From: Clostridiales bacterium Firm_16
Lineage (GTDB): Bacteria; Bacillota; Clostridia; Saccharofermentanales; Saccharofermentanaceae
Length of the DNA: 64,000 nucleotides
Assembly (NCBI GenBank): GCA_001604185.1
Contig: LVAV01000018.1
Coordinates: 1-64,000, forward strand
Direction of reading: 5' to 3'
Below the pieces are notes generated by a model. That model had not been told where the DNA came from and did no database searches. It was given only the letters and a program-made list of their open reading frames with translations. Position numbers and translations under genes: made by a program. Every line of letters begins with the position of its first letter. The stretch's first letter is position 1. Shown here in pieces: positions 12,736 through 57,602 of the stretch.

Positions 12736-13182
12736 TTAGAAAAGCTCAACAGCCTTTCCGTCTGCATCATAAATCTTCTTCTCACCGGCAACTACATAAA
12801 CGTCACCGCCGAGCTTAGCAGCCTTCTTCTCGATATCCTTAAGTGCGATCTGCTGGCCATCGATTTCGAAGATGATCTTGCCGAGCTTCTTAACTGCCTT
12901 CTTAGCCGGAGCCTTCTTAGCAGCAGCCTTCTTTGCAGGAGCAGCCTTCTTAGCCGGAGCAGCTTTCTTAGCAGCCGGAGCAGCCTTCTTAGCAGCCGGT
13001 GCAGCTTTCTTAGCCGGAGCCTTCTTAGCAGCAGCCTTCTTTGCAGGAGCCTTCTTAGCAGCCGGTGCCTTCTTAGCAACAGGAGCCTTCTTCACTTCTT
13101 CTTTCTTAGCCTCAGCAACTACCGGCTTAACCTCAGCAGCAACTTCCTTAGCAGCATCTTTGTTTGCACTTGCTTTTACCAT
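12736..13182 (-). CDS. Histone H1-like Lys/Ala/Pro-rich protein with C-terminal DUF6465-like domain
   Basis: A 148-residue, strongly basic protein. Residues 1-35 are Ala/Lys/Glu-rich, about 30-95 are AAKKAPAKKA-type repeats like the tails of eukaryotic H1 and bacterial Hc1/AlgP-like proteins, and the last 50 residues form a folded-looking domain (KIIFEIDGQQIALKDIEKKA). From memory that domain resembles DUF6465 of Clostridia; this is not verified. The tail should bind DNA or RNA non-specifically, suggesting nucleoid compaction. It is monocistronic with its own extended -10 promoter and strong terminator, and AGGAGG-type GGAGG lies 9 nt before the ATG, so it is probably well expressed. The repeat DNA is itself highly repetitive and may be unstable. 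Confidence 0.75.
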   Translation of the reverse strand: MVKASANKDAAKEVAAEVKPVVAEAKKEEVKKAPVAKKAPAAKKAPAKKAAAKKAPAKKAAPAAKKAAPAAKKAAPAKKAAPAKKAAAKKAPAKKAVKKLGKIIFEIDGQQIALKDIEKKAAKLGGDVYVVAGEKKIYDADGKAVELF

Positions 13183-18068: not shown

Positions 18069-18160
18069 GAGAGCCAGACACAATCCACGGCTCCAAAGAA
18101 GCGCAGAAACAAACAATTCCGCACAAACCCTCCCGCGGGAGCCAGACACGATTTCACGGG
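18069..18160. repeat. Imperfect direct repeat downstream of anti-sigma gene
   Basis: Two copies of a roughly 25-bp unit, GAGCCAGACACAATCCACGG near 18074 and GAGCCAGACACGATTTCACG near 18140, each preceded by CGCG and Gs. The second copy runs into the left arm of the long palindrome at 18148. Confidence 0.6.
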
Positions 18161-18272
18161 AAATATAGTGAACATAAAAAAACCTGTTTCCGCGCGATTC
18201 CGCAGGGCGAAGCCCGAGGACCAGCACGGAAACAGGTTTTTTCATGTACAGTTTAAGACCCCGTGAAATCGT
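18148..18272 (-). repeat. Long palindromic element A with conserved core, including a terminator
   Basis: Outer arms ACGATTTCACGGG (18148-18160) and CCCGTGAAATCGT (18260-18272) are perfect complements. Inner arms around 18176-18192 and 18227-18242 (AAAAAACCTGTTTCCG) are a bidirectional terminator. The apex (18193-18226) contains the core TTCCGCAGGGCGAAGCCCGA followed by GGACCA. The right arm covers the last 20 bases of the leftward permease gene. The same core, with different arms, occurs at 55923-56089. Confidence 0.8.
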
Positions 18273-19083
18273 ACCTGGCGACCCCCAGCATCCAAAACTT
18301 ATAACTTAGGTAGAAGAATAGTACTCCCAGTGCCGGTGCGCACCATGTCAGTACGGGTATATTTCCGGATTCCAGGATCGCAAGACTCGGATAGTAGGCC
18401 ACGAATGCGATGGGGATCACGAAGGTAAACAGGATACGGAATACTCCGTGGAAAATACTGGCCGGATACTTCGCGAAATCCTTAAAACGGAACATGATGA
18501 CCATGACGTATCCGGAACCGATGATCCAGAAGCAGGTGGCCGCCGCCGCGTTCATGATCGCGATCATGAAGAGGGAAGCTGTCAGGAGGAACAGCACCAG
18601 TTTCGCGATCACGAGGGGCGTGACGGGTATGCCGATGTGGACCCACGCATAGATCAGCGTGCCGATACCGAATGCGAACTGACCCAGGCCCTTCACATCG
18701 AAGACTTCCGACATGAAGTAGAAGAATACATTGATAGGCCGGAAGCAGTACTTGATAAAGTCACCGGACTGGACCTGGAAACGCAGGTTCCAGTTATTAT
18801 CGAAGAAACACTGTACAGGTGTCAGCGCGATCAACGAGAATCCGTACAGGAACAGCATGTGGTAGTAATCCCATCCGTTGATGCTCGGGAAGTTCTTGAA
18901 GAGGATCAGGAAGGTCACAAATCCGCTGAGGTTCGTCATGATCATGCCGATGGTGGAGATCACGAAGTCCGCACGGTAACTCATCTTACTCTTCAGATCC
19001 TGTACCAGGATCTTTCTGTAGATGCGAAGATAGAAACCGAAACCTCTCCTCTTCTTTGTCTCTTTTAAAGTAGTATCACTCAT
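18253..19083 (-). CDS. ABC-2 family transporter permease (DUF990-like), second subunit
   Basis: A 276-residue polytopic membrane protein with six predicted helices between about 45 and 270. LCR-like residues in QVQSGDFIKYCFRPINVFFY match the ABC2_membrane_6 (DUF990) group, where two such permeases pair with one ATPase. ATG 19083 is chosen because GGAG lies 8 nt upstream; ATG 19101 is possible. It is last of the operon ATPase - permease - permease. The substrate is unknown; this group includes viologen and drug exporters. Its last 20 bases form one arm of palindromic element A. Confidence 0.82.
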   Translation of the reverse strand: MSDTTLKETKKRRGFGFYLRIYRKILVQDLKSKMSYRADFVISTIGMIMTNLSGFVTFLILFKNFPSINGWDYYHMLFLYGFSLIALTPVQCFFDNNWNLRFQVQSGDFIKYCFRPINVFFYFMSEVFDVKGLGQFAFGIGTLIYAWVHIGIPVTPLVIAKLVLFLLTASLFMIAIMNAAAATCFWIIGSGYVMVIMFRFKDFAKYPASIFHGVFRILFTFVIPIAFVAYYPSLAILESGNIPVLTWCAPALGVLFFYLSYKFWMLGVARYDFTGS

Positions 19084-19121
19084 TTTCTCATCTCCATTCA
19101 TTGCTTCACACACTCCCGGAC

Positions 19122-19931
19122 TCAGCCGCCGTTGACTGTGATCTTTCTGACCGAATGATTCCAGAACAGGATCCCGGCTACGGTCAGGATGACACACCAG
19201 GCCAGCTGCAGACCGAACATCGGCAGTAAACCTTCCAGAGTATCCGTGCCGTTTTTCTTAAGAAGGATCGTCAACGGGATGTCATAGACGGCGCGGAAGG
19301 GAAGAAATTCGACGATCTTTCTGAAGAATTCCGGGAAGAACGCCAGAGGGATCGAAGCGCCCGAAAGCAGCAGAACGATGGTCTCTTTAACAATGTTAAT
19401 TCCCCATGTGGACTCGGTGTAGAGGCAAATCGTCGCTACGATCATCTCCATACTGAAGTTCACGATCAGGGCAAGTATGGTTGCCACGATAAAGTACAGC
19501 AGGTTGAAGCCCATAGGGATCGCACCGTGGGTCACGATCATGACTACGATGAATGTCGGAACGAAGGTCAAGGCGAAAAGTACCACATGCGATCCGGAGT
19601 AACTCCAGAAAGTATAGGTCCGAAAGTTCATCGGTTTTAAAAGGTCCAGTATGATCTTTCCCGACTGGATCGACCGGCTCATATCCCAGACCACAAACAT
19701 CTCCAGGAAATTGAAGAGCGCGGTGGCCAGGATCAGGTAGATCATGGTGTCGGTAAAAGTCATGCCGTTGACCACTTCTGTTCCGGCGGAGGCGTAGATA
19801 GCTTTCCACAGGAAATATACCAGCACCAGATAGATCAAGTTGGCAAAAAGCGTGACCGCGGTGCCGAGGCGGTACTGGAGAGATTCCATGATCCCCGCCC
19901 GGGTCAGCGCCAGGTGTCTTCGCATATTCAT
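19122..19931 (-). CDS. ABC-2 family transporter permease, first subunit
   Basis: A 269-residue protein with six predicted helices, of the same DUF990-like type as the next gene (IQSGKIILDLLKPMNFRTY corresponds to its QSGDFIKYCFRP). The two probably form a heterodimeric channel. ATG 19931 with GGAGG 10 nt upstream is preferred; a GTG at 19940 overlaps the ATPase stop. Spacing to the ATPase is 5 nt and to the next permease 38 nt. Confidence 0.82.
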   Translation of the reverse strand: MNMRRHLALTRAGIMESLQYRLGTAVTLFANLIYLVLVYFLWKAIYASAGTEVVNGMTFTDTMIYLILATALFNFLEMFVVWDMSRSIQSGKIILDLLKPMNFRTYTFWSYSGSHVVLFALTFVPTFIVVMIVTHGAIPMGFNLLYFIVATILALIVNFSMEMIVATICLYTESTWGINIVKETIVLLLSGASIPLAFFPEFFRKIVEFLPFRAVYDIPLTILLKKNGTDTLEGLLPMFGLQLAWCVILTVAGILFWNHSVRKITVNGG

Positions 19932-31522: not shown

Positions 31523-31565
31523 GTACGACAGTTTTTCATTTGGCGAGGATTACGTCGTATGATGG
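31523..31565. repeat. 43-bp direct repeat, copy 1
   Basis: Begins GTACGACAG and ends ACGTCGTATGATGG. Identical to the copy at 31745-31787. TACGAC and GTCGTA near its two ends could pair as a short stem. Confidence 0.9.
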
Positions 31566-31744
31566 GACAAACTCAGGCAGGTGCATATGACGGAATTGCA
31601 GTTTGAGCGCTTCTCGTCCTACGTTTTTCCCTGAATTGTAGGACTGTTTAAGTTTTTCCAGAAGATCCGTCGTATGATTTCAGCCGGAACGTAGGACTAT
31701 TTTTTACTCAAGCATAGAAACCGTCTGATAAAATTGCATGAAAC

Positions 31745-31787
31745 GTACGACAGTTTTTCATTTGGCGAGGATTACGTCGTATGATGG
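31745..31787. repeat. 43-bp direct repeat, copy 2
   Basis: Exact copy of 31523-31565, starting 222 bp after it. Confidence 0.9.
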
Positions 31788-31972
31788 CGGGACCGCGATC
31801 ACGTACATACGACAGATCTACGAATTGTGAGATTTCTGTCGTAGCGTATCACGGAACAGATCGCATCGCTGACCAGATTTCCGCAGACAAGAACACGGCC
31901 GCAGTTCGGGCAGGAGCGCAGCCGCAACGCAGACGAGAGCATCGCAGACCTGCACTATCACAAACATAAAAA

Positions 31973-43759: not shown

Positions 43760-44312
43760 TCAGCAGCTAGGCGAATAAGCTTCCCGGTTTGTCTTCAAGG
43801 CAAGCGAGTTAATAACAGATGAGAATATACGACCGAATTGGGGAAACGCCTGGTTCGGTCGTATTCGTTACCCCCTTGATTCGACGGATAATGCAGGATC
43901 TCCAAAACTGTCGTACGATTTTTGCTTTTTTTTCGTACGATTCTGCGTTTGAACTTAAAACAGTCGTAAAAACCTAATGCAATCTTACGACGGATTTGGT
44001 GTGGATCAATAGAATCGTCGTACATTTCGAGGAAAAACGTACGACAGAACCTGCGTTCTCGACAATTCCGTCGAACGAAGTGCCATGAAAATACGACGGT
44101 TCTTTCGTCCTTGGCAATTCCGTCGAACGAAGTGCCATGAAAATACGACAGTTCCCTCATCCTGGGCAATTCCGTCGAACGCCTCGATAGATACTGCTCC
44201 CCAAAGCGTGGACACACTTCACTATCAGTTTGTCCGACATTTAAATGCTTGAACCCACATAGTGCACATGCTCAAACAAGGAATGACTTATGGATTGATG
44301 CCTGGTACAAGA
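43760..44312. repeat. Gene-free region with TACGAC/GTCGTA motifs
   Basis: No credible gene. TACGAC or GTCGTA occurs nine times between about 43828 and 44150. The first pair forms an 11-bp stem (ATACGACCGAA at 43827-43837 with TTCGGTCGTAT at 43854-43864) that may end the DUF4214 gene's transcript. The 52-bp tandem repeat lies at its right end. Confidence 0.65.
44063..44186. repeat. 52-bp tandem repeat, about 2.3 copies
   Basis: Units start at 44063, 44115 and 44167, exactly 52 bp apart, each with CAATTCCGTCGAACG. The first 35 bases of units 1 and 2 are identical; the rest differ mostly by transitions. Unit 3 is truncated. Each full unit contains one TACGAC. Confidence 0.88.
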
Positions 44313-54349: not shown

Positions 54350-55846
54350 TTATTTGAGTTTCTTCTCCAACTCTTCGATGACGATCTCCAGTGCTTTGAT
54401 ACGCGCATATTTCTTATCCACGGATTCCAGAATATGCCACGGCGCGAACTTCGTGCTGGTCTTGGCGATCATCTCGTTGATGGCGTCTTCGTAGACATCC
54501 CACTTCTCACGATTGCGCCAGTCCTCCTCCGTGATCTTCCACTGCTTCTCCGGTGTATTCTGACGATCGGTAAATCTTTCCAGCTGGGTATCCTTATCGA
54601 TCTGTACCCAGAACTTGATGATCACCGCACCCCAGTCGTCCAGTTCTTTCTCGAATTCATTGATCTCGTTATAGGCCCGCTTCCAGTCGTTCTCGGAGCA
54701 GAATCCTTCAATCCTTTCCACCATGACACGACCATACCATGTGCGGTCGAAGATCGCCACATGTCCGTCTTTCGGAAGACGTGTCCAGAAACGCCACAGA
54801 TAGTGACGTGCCTTCTCATGCGGCTCCGGGCTGGCAATGGGATGTACTTCATAGCCACGCGGATCCAGCGCCTCGGCGATACGCTTGATGTTGCCTCCTT
54901 TACCGGCCGCATCCCATCCCTCGTATGCAATGATCAGCGGCACACGTTTTCTGTATAGACGGTTATGCAGTTCAGAAAGACGATCCTGGAGCTTATCCAG
55001 TTTCTCCTTATACTCCTCGTCGGTCAGTTCTTTTCCCTCCAGAGGAATTTCAGAAAGCTTCGGCATCTTCACCAGCGGGAAAGTATTCTGCAGAAGCGGC
55101 ACAGCCAGCGAGTGATTCTGCAGCGCGATCTCGATGCCCTCATTCATGCGCTCGAGGACCTGCAGCTCCGTCCACTTCTCGGACTTCGCATCCACGATAT
55201 ACCACGGCGCCGACGACGTATCCGTATCCTCGAGATACTTCTCGAAGATCTTCTCACAGGCTTTGTAGTGCTTGTTCTGCCACACATCGCCTTCACTGAC
55301 ACGCCACTTGGTATCGATATCTTCCTTCAAGGCATCGATGCGTTTCTTCTGCTCGTTTTCCGATATATGCATGAAAAATTTCAGCACCAGGTATCCGTTA
55401 TCTGTCAGTTGTCTTTCGAACCTTCTGATGCTGGCAATACGCTTCTCATAAAGGGTGTCGGACAAGTCACCATTCAGGCGGTCCATCACGATCTCGTTCA
55501 TCCAGCCCGTGTTATAGAAACGGAATTTTCCTGCTTCCGGAAGCGCTTCAAAGTATCTGCAGAGGAATGGTTTTCTCTTCTCCAGATCTGTCGGCATATC
55601 GAAGGTCGCGACCTTATAGAAACGCGGGTCGATATTGTTGATGACATTACCGATAAGAGTACCCTTACCGGCCGTGCCCCAGCCTTCGACAAGAACCACC
55701 ACCGGTAGCTTATTGTCCTTGATCTTGTTCTGATTCACAAAAAGAAGATCTTCCTGTTCCTTCAACCGGGATTTCAGGATATCCTTCTCAGGCTTCTCGT
55801 TCAGATATGCGTTCTTGAGCACGGTCACCGCCTCCTTCAAAATCAA
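54350..55846 (-). CDS. pap: Polyphosphate:AMP phosphotransferase (two PPK2 domains)
   Basis: A 498-residue protein of two tandem PPK2 domains. The N-terminal domain has Walker A GWGTAGKGT (about 54-62) but YNTGWMNE where the active FDRSWY-type motif should be; the C-terminal domain has Walker A GWDAAGKGG (about 308) and an intact FDRTWYGRVMVERIEG. Two-domain PPK2 enzymes make ADP from AMP and polyphosphate, with the C-terminal domain catalytic, as expected here. It lies in the same direction as the cardiolipin synthase gene, separated by palindromic element B. Confidence 0.88.
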   Translation of the reverse strand: MILKEAVTVLKNAYLNEKPEKDILKSRLKEQEDLLFVNQNKIKDNKLPVVVLVEGWGTAGKGTLIGNVINNIDPRFYKVATFDMPTDLEKRKPFLCRYFEALPEAGKFRFYNTGWMNEIVMDRLNGDLSDTLYEKRIASIRRFERQLTDNGYLVLKFFMHISENEQKKRIDALKEDIDTKWRVSEGDVWQNKHYKACEKIFEKYLEDTDTSSAPWYIVDAKSEKWTELQVLERMNEGIEIALQNHSLAVPLLQNTFPLVKMPKLSEIPLEGKELTDEEYKEKLDKLQDRLSELHNRLYRKRVPLIIAYEGWDAAGKGGNIKRIAEALDPRGYEVHPIASPEPHEKARHYLWRFWTRLPKDGHVAIFDRTWYGRVMVERIEGFCSENDWKRAYNEINEFEKELDDWGAVIIKFWVQIDKDTQLERFTDRQNTPEKQWKITEEDWRNREKWDVYEDAINEMIAKTSTKFAPWHILESVDKKYARIKALEIVIEELEKKLK

Positions 55847-55922
55847 GATTTTAGTAGTACTCTCATTCTATCACGTTTGGATATGTCGCGAGAATCCTTT
55901 TCGGAAGCGGTCCCACGCAGAT

Positions 55923-56089
55923 GACTCACTTCTCCGATTTTCTGAATCACATTTGTAGATCGATCGCTTTTTCGGATTCTTTCGACGAGTGTTTCCGCAG
56001 GGCAAAGCCCGAGGACCAACGAGGAGGAAGATCCGAAAAAAAACGATCGTATTCAGAAATCGGTTATCAGAAAATCGGAGAAATGAGTC
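55923..56089 (-). repeat. Long palindromic element B with the same core as element A
   Basis: Arms GACTCACTTCTCCGATTTTC (from 55923) and its complement ending at 56089 match at 22 of 23 positions, and the pairing continues inward at about 70 percent to 55985/56025. The apex holds the core TTCCGCAGGGCAAAGCCCGA then GGACCAAC. The right arm is exactly the last 23 bases, stop included, of the cardiolipin synthase gene. Confidence 0.8.
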
Positions 56090-57602
56090 GAAGTACCAGA
56101 CGGAACAAACTCCATGCTTTGTGGTAGTTGAGTTCCTCCGGCAGTACCTCATCTGACTCTTCGAATGACTTCAGGAGATCCTGTGTCACTTCGTGAACGG
56201 TGTCAGTATTGCACATCCATACGGCACTTTCGAAATGCAGGTACAGACTTCTGTAGTCCCAGTTTACCGAGCCGACGATAGCGGCGCGATCGTCAATGAC
56301 GACGGTCTTGGAGTGCATGAATCCCGGAGTGTATTCATAGACATGTACACCTCCGCGTACCAGGTCACGGTAATAAGAACGGGTGGCCTGGTGGATCATC
56401 CACTTATCGTATTTACTCGGTGCCACGATGCGGACATCCAAACCGCTTTTCGCCGCAAGGCAGAGTGCCGATATCATGTTCTCATCCAGGATCAGATACG
56501 GGGTACTGATGTAGATCGATTTCTTGGCGGCGGTGATCATGTTCATGTATACATTCTCACCTACGTATTCACGATCGATAGGTGTATCACAATATGGCTG
56601 TACGAACCCGTCGTTATGGATCGGACACGGCTCGTCTTTCCAAGGATAGAAATCACTGATCTTCTCTTCTTCCGTGCTGAAACTCATCCATACCTGAAGG
56701 ACGAATACTGTCAGACTCCAGGCACCTTCGCCTTCGAGCATGACAGCGGAATCTTTCCAGTATCCGAAGCGTTCTTTCTCATTTACATATTCATCGGCCA
56801 GATTCAGGCCTCCGCAGAAAGCGATCTTACCGTCGATGGATGCGATCTTTCTGTGGTTACGGTTATTCTGAATAGTCGTAAAGAAAGGACGGAAAGGATT
56901 GAAGATCTGGCACTTGATACCCAGCGCTTTCATCTGCTCCGGGAAGTCCGAAGGAAGACTCAGGAAACATCCCATATCGTCATACATCAGACGCACATCA
57001 ACACCGGATTTTGCCTTCTCTTTTAAGATCTCCAGAATGGAATCCCAGAATACACCTTCACCGATGGTGAAGTACTCCAGGAAGATATAATTCTCCGCCA
57101 GGCGAAGCTTCTCCAGAAATATCGGCCAGAACCGTTCGCCCGGAGAAAGATATTGTGTCGTCGTGTTCTTATAGACGGGGAAATGCATGGTGTTCTGAAG
57201 ATAATCTACATTACGAAGATACTCCGGGAATTCCTCTTCGATCTCATCTCGAACTTCCACGGATTCAGGAAGATCTTCGGCAGAATCTTCTACTGTTTTC
57301 TGCAGATTCTTGGCGTAGTATGCAGTAGTCATCTGAGTATTGAGGAACACATAAAGCACGCCGCCGAAAACCGGGAACATCAGGATCAGGAATACCCAGA
57401 TCAGACGGTATCCACCCTTATCGTTCTTACTGACCACATAAAGCGCAACAATTACGCTGATCACACGGAACAATACGGATGCGATATCCGAATAAAGTGT
57501 ACCCGCAGCAATCAGGAAAATAAACGATGCAATTTCAATCAGCAGGATCAGAATGATCACTGCTCGTCTCATTAAAAGAGACTGAAACCATTGTTTGCGC
57601 AT
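56067..57602 (-). CDS. cls: Cardiolipin synthase (phospholipase D family)
   Basis: A 511-residue membrane enzyme: two N-terminal helices (about 12-55) and two phospholipase D domains with HKD motifs, HRKIASID (about 246) and HSKTVVID (about 426), each followed by GG or GS and N. It joins two phosphatidylglycerol molecules to make cardiolipin and glycerol. The length is normal for Bacillota Cls. AGGAGG precedes ATG 57602. Its 3' end forms an arm of palindromic element B. The GT4 glycolipid gene and lipases nearby suggest a lipid-rich neighbourhood. Confidence 0.93.
   Translation of the reverse strand: MRKQWFQSLLMRRAVIILILLIEIASFIFLIAAGTLYSDIASVLFRVISVIVALYVVSKNDKGGYRLIWVFLILMFPVFGGVLYVFLNTQMTTAYYAKNLQKTVEDSAEDLPESVEVRDEIEEEFPEYLRNVDYLQNTMHFPVYKNTTTQYLSPGERFWPIFLEKLRLAENYIFLEYFTIGEGVFWDSILEILKEKAKSGVDVRLMYDDMGCFLSLPSDFPEQMKALGIKCQIFNPFRPFFTTIQNNRNHRKIASIDGKIAFCGGLNLADEYVNEKERFGYWKDSAVMLEGEGAWSLTVFVLQVWMSFSTEEEKISDFYPWKDEPCPIHNDGFVQPYCDTPIDREYVGENVYMNMITAAKKSIYISTPYLILDENMISALCLAAKSGLDVRIVAPSKYDKWMIHQATRSYYRDLVRGGVHVYEYTPGFMHSKTVVIDDRAAIVGSVNWDYRSLYLHFESAVWMCNTDTVHEVTQDLLKSFEESDEVLPEELNYHKAWSLFRLVLRLISPIF

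Follow-up and report, generated by a model that had tools for sequence, protein, structure and literature searches.

A hairpin repeat with locus-specific palindromic arms, dispersed chiefly at the 3′ ends of genes in a group of mostly rumen bacteria

Dispersed imperfect hairpins that lie mostly 3′ of genes and carry a conserved mismatch or bulge are described as REP and BIME sequences of the GTAG type, associated with RAYT (TnpAREP) proteins (PMC3733652, PMC8266576); for E. coli REPs, both the mismatch bulge and the GTAG tag are reported to be needed for cleavage by TnpAREP (PMC8266576). The CGTC REPs (dRS3, RPE-4/6) are hairpins occurring in several phyla, with an unpaired CCA tail and, as far as that account goes, no known transposase (PMC3733652). 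Palindromes can also change in place: imperfect palindromes of E. coli are reported to become more perfect when the nascent strand serves as template, the template switch behind quasipalindrome mutation (PMC7202029).

The hairpin repeat described here shares the above features of GTAG-type REPs but carries no GTAG tag (4 of 159 nonredundant copies have GTAG within 12 nt of the motif), forms a larger unit with a stem of free sequence and long locus-specific arms, and occurs in genomes of which 19 of 23 lack the Y1 (RAYT) transposase. Like the CGTC REPs it often has a CCA (R1–3 = CCA in 78 of the 159 copies), but CGTC stands within 10 nt before CCGCAG in only 1 of 159, and an internal loop interrupts the stem, with no regular stem of 8–9 bp. 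As both tags fail, neither REP type was accepted as its identity, and for the same reason we liken the repeat to REP-type or terminator-type hairpins and file it as neither. With bidirectional intrinsic terminators it shares a hairpin with an A-run and a T-run (65 of 91 scored copies), but it differs in a conserved internal loop at the tip, in pairing that continues past the T-run into genes, and in the reversed runs of element B. Arms made more perfect by nascent-strand synthesis would be the likeness to quasipalindrome mutation, which is described for mutational hotspots, whereas here the arms are attached to a dispersed repeat with an inferred extension into gene ends. MITEs have terminal inverted repeats common to all copies, a direct target duplication, and a cognate transposase; here the shared sequence is central and the outer arms are locus-specific, and Y1 was the one transposase family searched. 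Integron attC sites have conserved outer R′ and R″ boxes and a variable centre; here it is the centre that is conserved, with conservation lost past about 24 nt, and an attC identity was rejected on this ground. No description of a CCGCAG/CGAGGA hairpin repeat was found in titles and abstract openings, drawn mostly from outside the subscription journals.

The window is a stretch of 64 kb from Clostridiales bacterium Firm_16, a genome referred to as G000, and contains two such hairpins, elements A and B. Element B is an imperfect palindrome of 167 nt, delimited by arm pairing and fold (55,923–56,089). Its apical motif, CCGCAG-GGC-AAA-GCC-CGAGGA, lies on the plus strand at 55,995–56,015 and includes the inner stem-loop GGGC AAA GCCC (56,000–56,010, plus strand), which corresponds to the freely varying stem of the family; the conserved unit, approximated as 24 nt on each side of the motif and without sharp edges, spans 55,971–56,039 (plus strand). 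As the first-pass annotation had proposed, the right outer arm (56,067–56,089, minus strand) consists of the final 23 nt of cls, stop codon included, confirmed by the ORF at 56,067–57,602 (minus strand), which encodes a PLD-type cardiolipin synthase-like protein (Pfam PLDc_2, PLDc, and PLDc_N). The left outer arm (55,923–55,945) is indeed an inverted copy of this gene end with one mismatch (22/23, 96% complementarity over 23 nt), and the pairing said to continue inward for some 40 bases at roughly 70 percent was measured in 30 of 45 aligned columns (67%). The match is thus far better in the outer 23 nt than further in, which looks like an older hairpin lengthened by a later event; since outer arms across the family are in general no more perfect than inner arms, we treat this young-outer pattern as a single case and not as a family rule. 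The region 55,915–56,100 (186 nt) folds with −77.9 kcal/mol on the plus strand (z −8.8) and −74.8 kcal/mol on the minus strand (z −7.4), none of 200 shuffles being as good in either case. Arm scores are 28.8 for element B and 31.0 for element A; of 1000 anchors placed at random in the window, 99% scored no more than 8.6. The top random anchor scored 28.4, and anchors could land on A or B.

Immediately downstream of cls and in the same direction lies ppk2 (54,350–55,846, minus strand, Pfam PPK2). In the transcript of cls, the right-arm A-run of element B (56,036–56,043) is read as a T-run that precedes the apex, and the left-arm T-run (55,968–55,972) as an A-run that follows it, just where the first-pass annotation had placed them and in a polarity opposite to that of most members. 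A terminator scan of 55,800–56,200 returned no terminator; on this result and the A/T polarity, an ordinary terminator was rejected for element B. The corresponding claim of the annotation thus stands for element B itself, but is not a general rule, given the 65 of 91 members that have terminator-like runs. Rfam gave no match in the window at gathering score and none at 55,850–56,150 up to an E value of 5, and over 16 other loci it returned only 5S, tRNA, and a sub-threshold miRNA match; an Rfam family was rejected as the identity of the repeat.

Element A (18,141–18,279, core at 18,200–18,220 on the plus strand) shows a gene-end overlap that the first-pass annotation did not mention: the final 27 nt of an ABC-2 permease ORF (18,253–19,197, minus strand, Pfam ABC2_membrane_6) lie within its right arm. 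The sequence GGGCRAAGCCC occurs twice in the window, in elements A and B, compared with 0.05 expected occurrences. The core loop reads GAA in A and AAA in B with the small stem kept, as annotated, and across the family compensatory change likewise keeps the pairing. These data support A and B as two copies of a single element with a common core.

Other repeats were seen in the window and its relatives. Intergenic arrays of short inverted words, with a period of about 52–53 nt in several cases, form a second repeat type (31,523–31,843 and 43,904–44,195 in the window; 3783–3925 in L347, 1325–1465 in L327, and 1165–1398 in L339). The words differ by species, being TACGAC...GTCGTA in the window and of the TACGACTAA, TTAGCCACC, and TTTACCGC types in relatives, so that spacing seems to be kept and sequence not. 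Lysine/alanine-rich repeats (AKKA type by eye) at 12,881–13,169, within the ORF 12,736–13,182 (minus strand), resemble a histone H1-like tail.

The extent of the shared unit was read from 187 elements of genus genomes and clostridial contigs (a set that omits 37 loci from other taxa, L211–L240, and L361 onward), reduced to 159 nonredundant elements by removing near-duplicates above 60% identity. Position-wise information reaches background about 24 nt from the motif on both sides, which suggests a unit length of about 70 nt; the columns about 15–24 nt from the motif are A-rich on the left and T-rich on the right. Copies at two different genes, pfl and aspS, align over about 62 nt, and the bases outside differ between the loci and pair within each. 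The tip comprises an asymmetric internal loop (5′ CCGCAG / 5′ CGAGGA), a variable stem of about 3–6 bp, and usually a 3-nt loop, on top of a longer stem at the base of the unit, in which the left side usually has an A-run and the right side a T-run. Drawn on paper, a short helix (TCC/GGA) leads to the stem through a G-A mismatch, a C-G pair, and one bulged A, or alternatively through a GCA/GA internal loop; the internal loop is present in the predicted folds of most copies.

An alignment fold (A2) showed little covariation because it was built from copies selected for their GGGC stems. For an unbiased test we used free-stem matches, found with the pattern TCCGCAG, 6–14 nt, CGAGGA, in which the CCGCAG and CGAGGA frame of the inner stem is required by the search. 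All 78 such matches listed for three genomes entered unselected: an inner stem of at least 3 bp was present in 59, of 17 kinds (among them GGGC/GCCC, GGC/GCC, GACGC/GCGTC, GGAC/GTCC, and GTCC/GGAC), compared with a mean of 17.7 and a maximum of 25 for recombined halves. The inner stem is therefore free in sequence and length, and the core-stem covariation that the first-pass annotation had suggested checking is borne out: the stems keep pairing while their sequence changes. At pfl, for example, G011 has GACGC/GCGTC and G017 GGAGC/GCTCC between near-identical flanks.

Genomes of this group of mostly rumen bacteria each have the repeat at several to tens of places, as a rule directly 3′ of a gene. 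In G000 the core, with one mismatch allowed, occurs eight times, and its reversed control not at all; a DNA search with element B found further copies that, apart from B itself, matched only around the core. The free-stem pattern gave 18 matches in G000 and 496 in all 23 genus genomes (3–49 per genome), against 11 for the reversed pattern. With a fixed stem and up to two mismatches, 22 of the 23 genus genomes match, compared with 1 of 36 other genomes of the family or order, where the single match has two mismatches and lacks this fold. A draw across the phylum (398 genomes including G000, the others by kinship from other orders or classes) contained 43 genomes with a match. The 397 genomes besides G000 had 0–6 matches each, near the control; judged by eye, almost none of the matches listed has a stem, with an exception in G370. 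Among the named clostridial matches listed, many are MAGs from the rumen or other ruminant gut. It should be noted that these are draft genomes, many of them MAGs, that ORF calls were simple (minimum of 90 or 100 aa), and that statements on single orthologous loci were partly made by eye.

The draft state of the assemblies, and a contamination of 5.4% in G000, bear on the reading that the palindromes are chance pairings or fold-back chimeras made in MAG assembly. For the family this reading is largely refuted and we consider it extremely improbable: the motif occurs in all 23 genomes with a near-empty control, arm scores lie far above swapped flanks and random anchors, separate assemblies differ by compensatory changes, and the arms are imperfect and differ between species.

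A pan-bacterial family first looked likely because matches were found in Mesorhizobium, Omnitrophica, Kaiserbacteria, and others. The broad search returned at least 117 stretches, with 80 loci among the matches listed (43 clostridial and 37 nonclostridial). In the listed clostridial loci 40 of 44 motifs score 12 or more; in the listed nonclostridial loci 10 of 38 motifs beat all 20 shuffles of their own flanks, some barely, and many motifs lie inside ORFs. With 28 of these 38 motifs failing the own-flank shuffles, the idea of a pan-bacterial family was dropped. The best look-alikes outside the clostridia, L065 (arm score 34.4), L066, L108, and L135, look genuine, and a distant kinship may exist. 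Free-stem counts exceed the control in some nonclostridial genomes (64 vs 28 in G061, 50 vs 19 in G063, 17 vs 3 in G065, 10 vs 1 in G066, and 8 vs 0 in G067) and do not stand above it in others (14 vs 10 in G060, 60 vs 54 in G062, and 37 vs 52 in G064); codon usage could explain part of the excess over the control. At several Mesorhizobium loci (L070, L074, L094, and L129 among others) the apical motif is flanked by direct repeats of a gene 3′ end, which by eye reads like that of ilvC; L129 has two apical motifs 98 nt apart. Searches for a phage or plasmid origin of the repeat gave no match, and a loosened motif found 48 stretches in IMG/VR, with an inner stem of at least 3 bp in seven and an arm score of 11 or more in none of the 48; given empty searches and viral stretches without arms, such an origin was dropped.

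Palindromic pairing in many copies extends past the conserved unit into sequence unique to the locus. A first set of 112 elements had palindromic arms with a median of about 48 nt per side and a score of 18.8; swapping right flanks between elements lowered these values to 14 nt and 4.2 (maximum 11.2). An arm score of 12 or more was reached by 127 of the 159 nonredundant copies, and 32 are without clear arms. When only sequence more than 26 nt from the motif is counted, 60 of the 159 copies lie above the 99% level for swapped flanks (10.6) and none exceeds the largest swapped-flank value of 36.6, which probably came from orthologues surviving the duplicate filter. Among 24 predicted pairs in ten aligned rows from pfl and aspS, 11 show a double change that keeps pairing, eight of them just outside the A/T runs; because the rows mix two loci, part of these double changes are differences between unrelated arms.

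Most scored copies look like bidirectional terminators: 65 of 91 have the A-run on the left and the T-run on the right, giving a hairpin followed by T on either strand, whereas the runs are reversed in four, including element B and the cls copy of G010, and 22 have neither arrangement. This polarity, together with the compensatory changes in the arms, would fit a selected RNA element: an intrinsic terminator working in both directions, or a stabiliser of mRNA ends, with an RNA-binding protein on its apical internal loop, arms matched by selection for RNA pairing, and copies spread by recombination. Such an element does not account well for arms that reach past the T-run to enter coding sequence, further than a terminator requires, nor for the reversed runs of element B and three other copies. 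In addition, G-T oppositions in the arms (92) do not outnumber A-C oppositions (109), so the wobble excess expected of a selected RNA is absent on either strand; A-G oppositions (175) exceed C-T (93), a strand asymmetry without explanation that arises in part near the motif.

The position of the copies relative to genes is again compatible with an RNA function. Neighbours were called for 107 copies, a further 17, in which an ORF call extended into the core, being skipped: convergent genes flank 49 and divergent genes nine, so that 98 of 107 are found between convergent or codirectional genes, mostly 3′ of genes, and one orientation is favoured after codirectional genes (34 vs 15, p = 0.009). 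The two sides of the repeat are not equivalent: the arm on the CGAGGA side overlaps the adjacent gene 3′ end by at least 6 nt in 47 of 83 cases, compared with 15 of 64 on the CCGCAG side, and the stop codon and the core are a median of 45 nt apart on the former side and 87.5 nt on the latter. Element A, with its right arm over the end of the permease ORF, follows the CGAGGA-side rule, and between convergent genes inverted pairs of copies occur, each facing its own gene (e.g., L284 and L193). Weighing these positions against the features of the arms, we regard a selected RNA element as possible but unlikely.

Comparison of orthologous loci shows that the unit is present in some species and absent in others. 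The cls gene was found in 22 genus genomes (in two pieces in one), in most with the same neighbour, ppk2, beside it; a core lies within 330 nt downstream in three of the 22, G000, G010, and G020, that of G020 being oriented the other way. Inspection by eye showed a one-base variant in G012, a truncated copy in G022, remnants or no element at several other loci, and in G006 a short cls–ppk2 spacer without a palindrome; element-free orthologues, which the first-pass annotation had proposed to look for, are thus many at cls. A core is present at 6 of 18 aspS loci and at 11 of 19 pfl loci, one of the latter being cut at a contig end. In the sister genomes G021 and G009 the aspS element occupies the same place with its centre in opposite orientation, which speaks against a selected RNA element, and its outer arms read TTCC/GGAA in G021 and TTCA/TGAA in G009.

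Presence and absence at cls, aspS, and pfl, the homologous unit of about 62 nt at different genes, and a mismatch and bulge inside the hairpin as described for E. coli REPs (PMC8266576) would all be expected of a transposable unit of single-stranded DNA (REP/RAYT-like, or using another HUH enzyme or recombinase) that inserts into the tip of an existing palindrome or duplicates its target inverted. We think this quite unlikely: both REP tags are rare, the Y1 transposase, the sole transposase family searched, is missing from most of the genomes, and by eye no outer palindrome without the unit was seen among the cls, aspS, and pfl orthologues.

The arms are locus-specific, and in the cls cases they match a conserved gene end. 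By eye the C-terminus of cls is conserved in nearly all orthologues, and the gene is therefore the likely source of the inverted copy, which extends over 22/23 nt in G000 and in G010 over 18 exact nt across the stop codon, weaker further in. The first-pass annotation had named the same arm without any core as evidence against its reading, and this was found in part: the inverted cls end surrounds a different apex in G005 (18 nt exact) and G018 (15 nt), and G020 keeps part of it. Three different hairpins at cls in different species thus carry inverted copies of the cls end; arm formation is therefore not tied to this core alone, and the motif may be a bystander. G004 (L263) has three direct tandem copies of about 55 nt of the cls 3′ end, at a site that in other species holds inverted copies. 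A second apical motif, CTCARACAG...CTCGTGG, is rare (five places, L381–L385, in 3 of 23 genomes) and occurs once at cls in each of the three.

The explanation that we favour, with a confidence somewhat above even, is that element B belongs to a dispersed family of REP-like hairpin units, each about 70 nt long, whose arms are made and re-matched by self-templated synthesis, mostly from the gene side. We infer this from sequence comparison; no copying event was seen, and no sister pair that differs by the presence of an arm around the same core was found. A hairpin in single-stranded DNA would let a nascent or nicked strand fold back and copy its own 5′ flank, most often a gene end, so that an inverted copy of the flank is added beyond the hairpin; the strand would then return to its template or be ligated. 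Such fold-back copying could keep the arms matched over time, and it would explain their arbitrary sequence, a length beyond that of any terminator, their joint change, and the inversion. Strand direction, or selection against copies that overwrite genes, can account for the gene side as the main source, and the data do not separate the two. Selection probably keeps copies 3′ of genes, where most could act as bidirectional terminators or mRNA-end hairpins; element B, with its reversed A/T polarity, might serve at most as an mRNA 3′-end hairpin between cls and ppk2.

A putative protein probably recognises the repeat by its constant internal loop. The Y1 transposase is not this reader in most genomes, since a profile search for it (PF01797) found one in 4 of 23, G000 not among them, and no partner protein for the repeat came out of that search. 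A decidedly unlikely variant would have the repeat as a mobile single-stranded hairpin, with a putative nicking enzyme reading the internal loop, whose insertion or upkeep duplicates the neighbouring sequence in inverted orientation: its 3′ end would prime on its own 5′ flank and write a mirror image of the gene end, and the hairpin would grow outward and could flip. We know of no described mode of transposition that duplicates a neighbour in inverted orientation in this way.

With more than 100 natural palindromes that have a common tip and often gene-derived arms, the growth and homogenisation of long inverted repeats can be tracked between species. With such a set one could test whether fold-back synthesis acts on gene ends as an evolutionary force, and the conserved loop points to a putative protein that reads the internal loop whatever the sequence of the stem.
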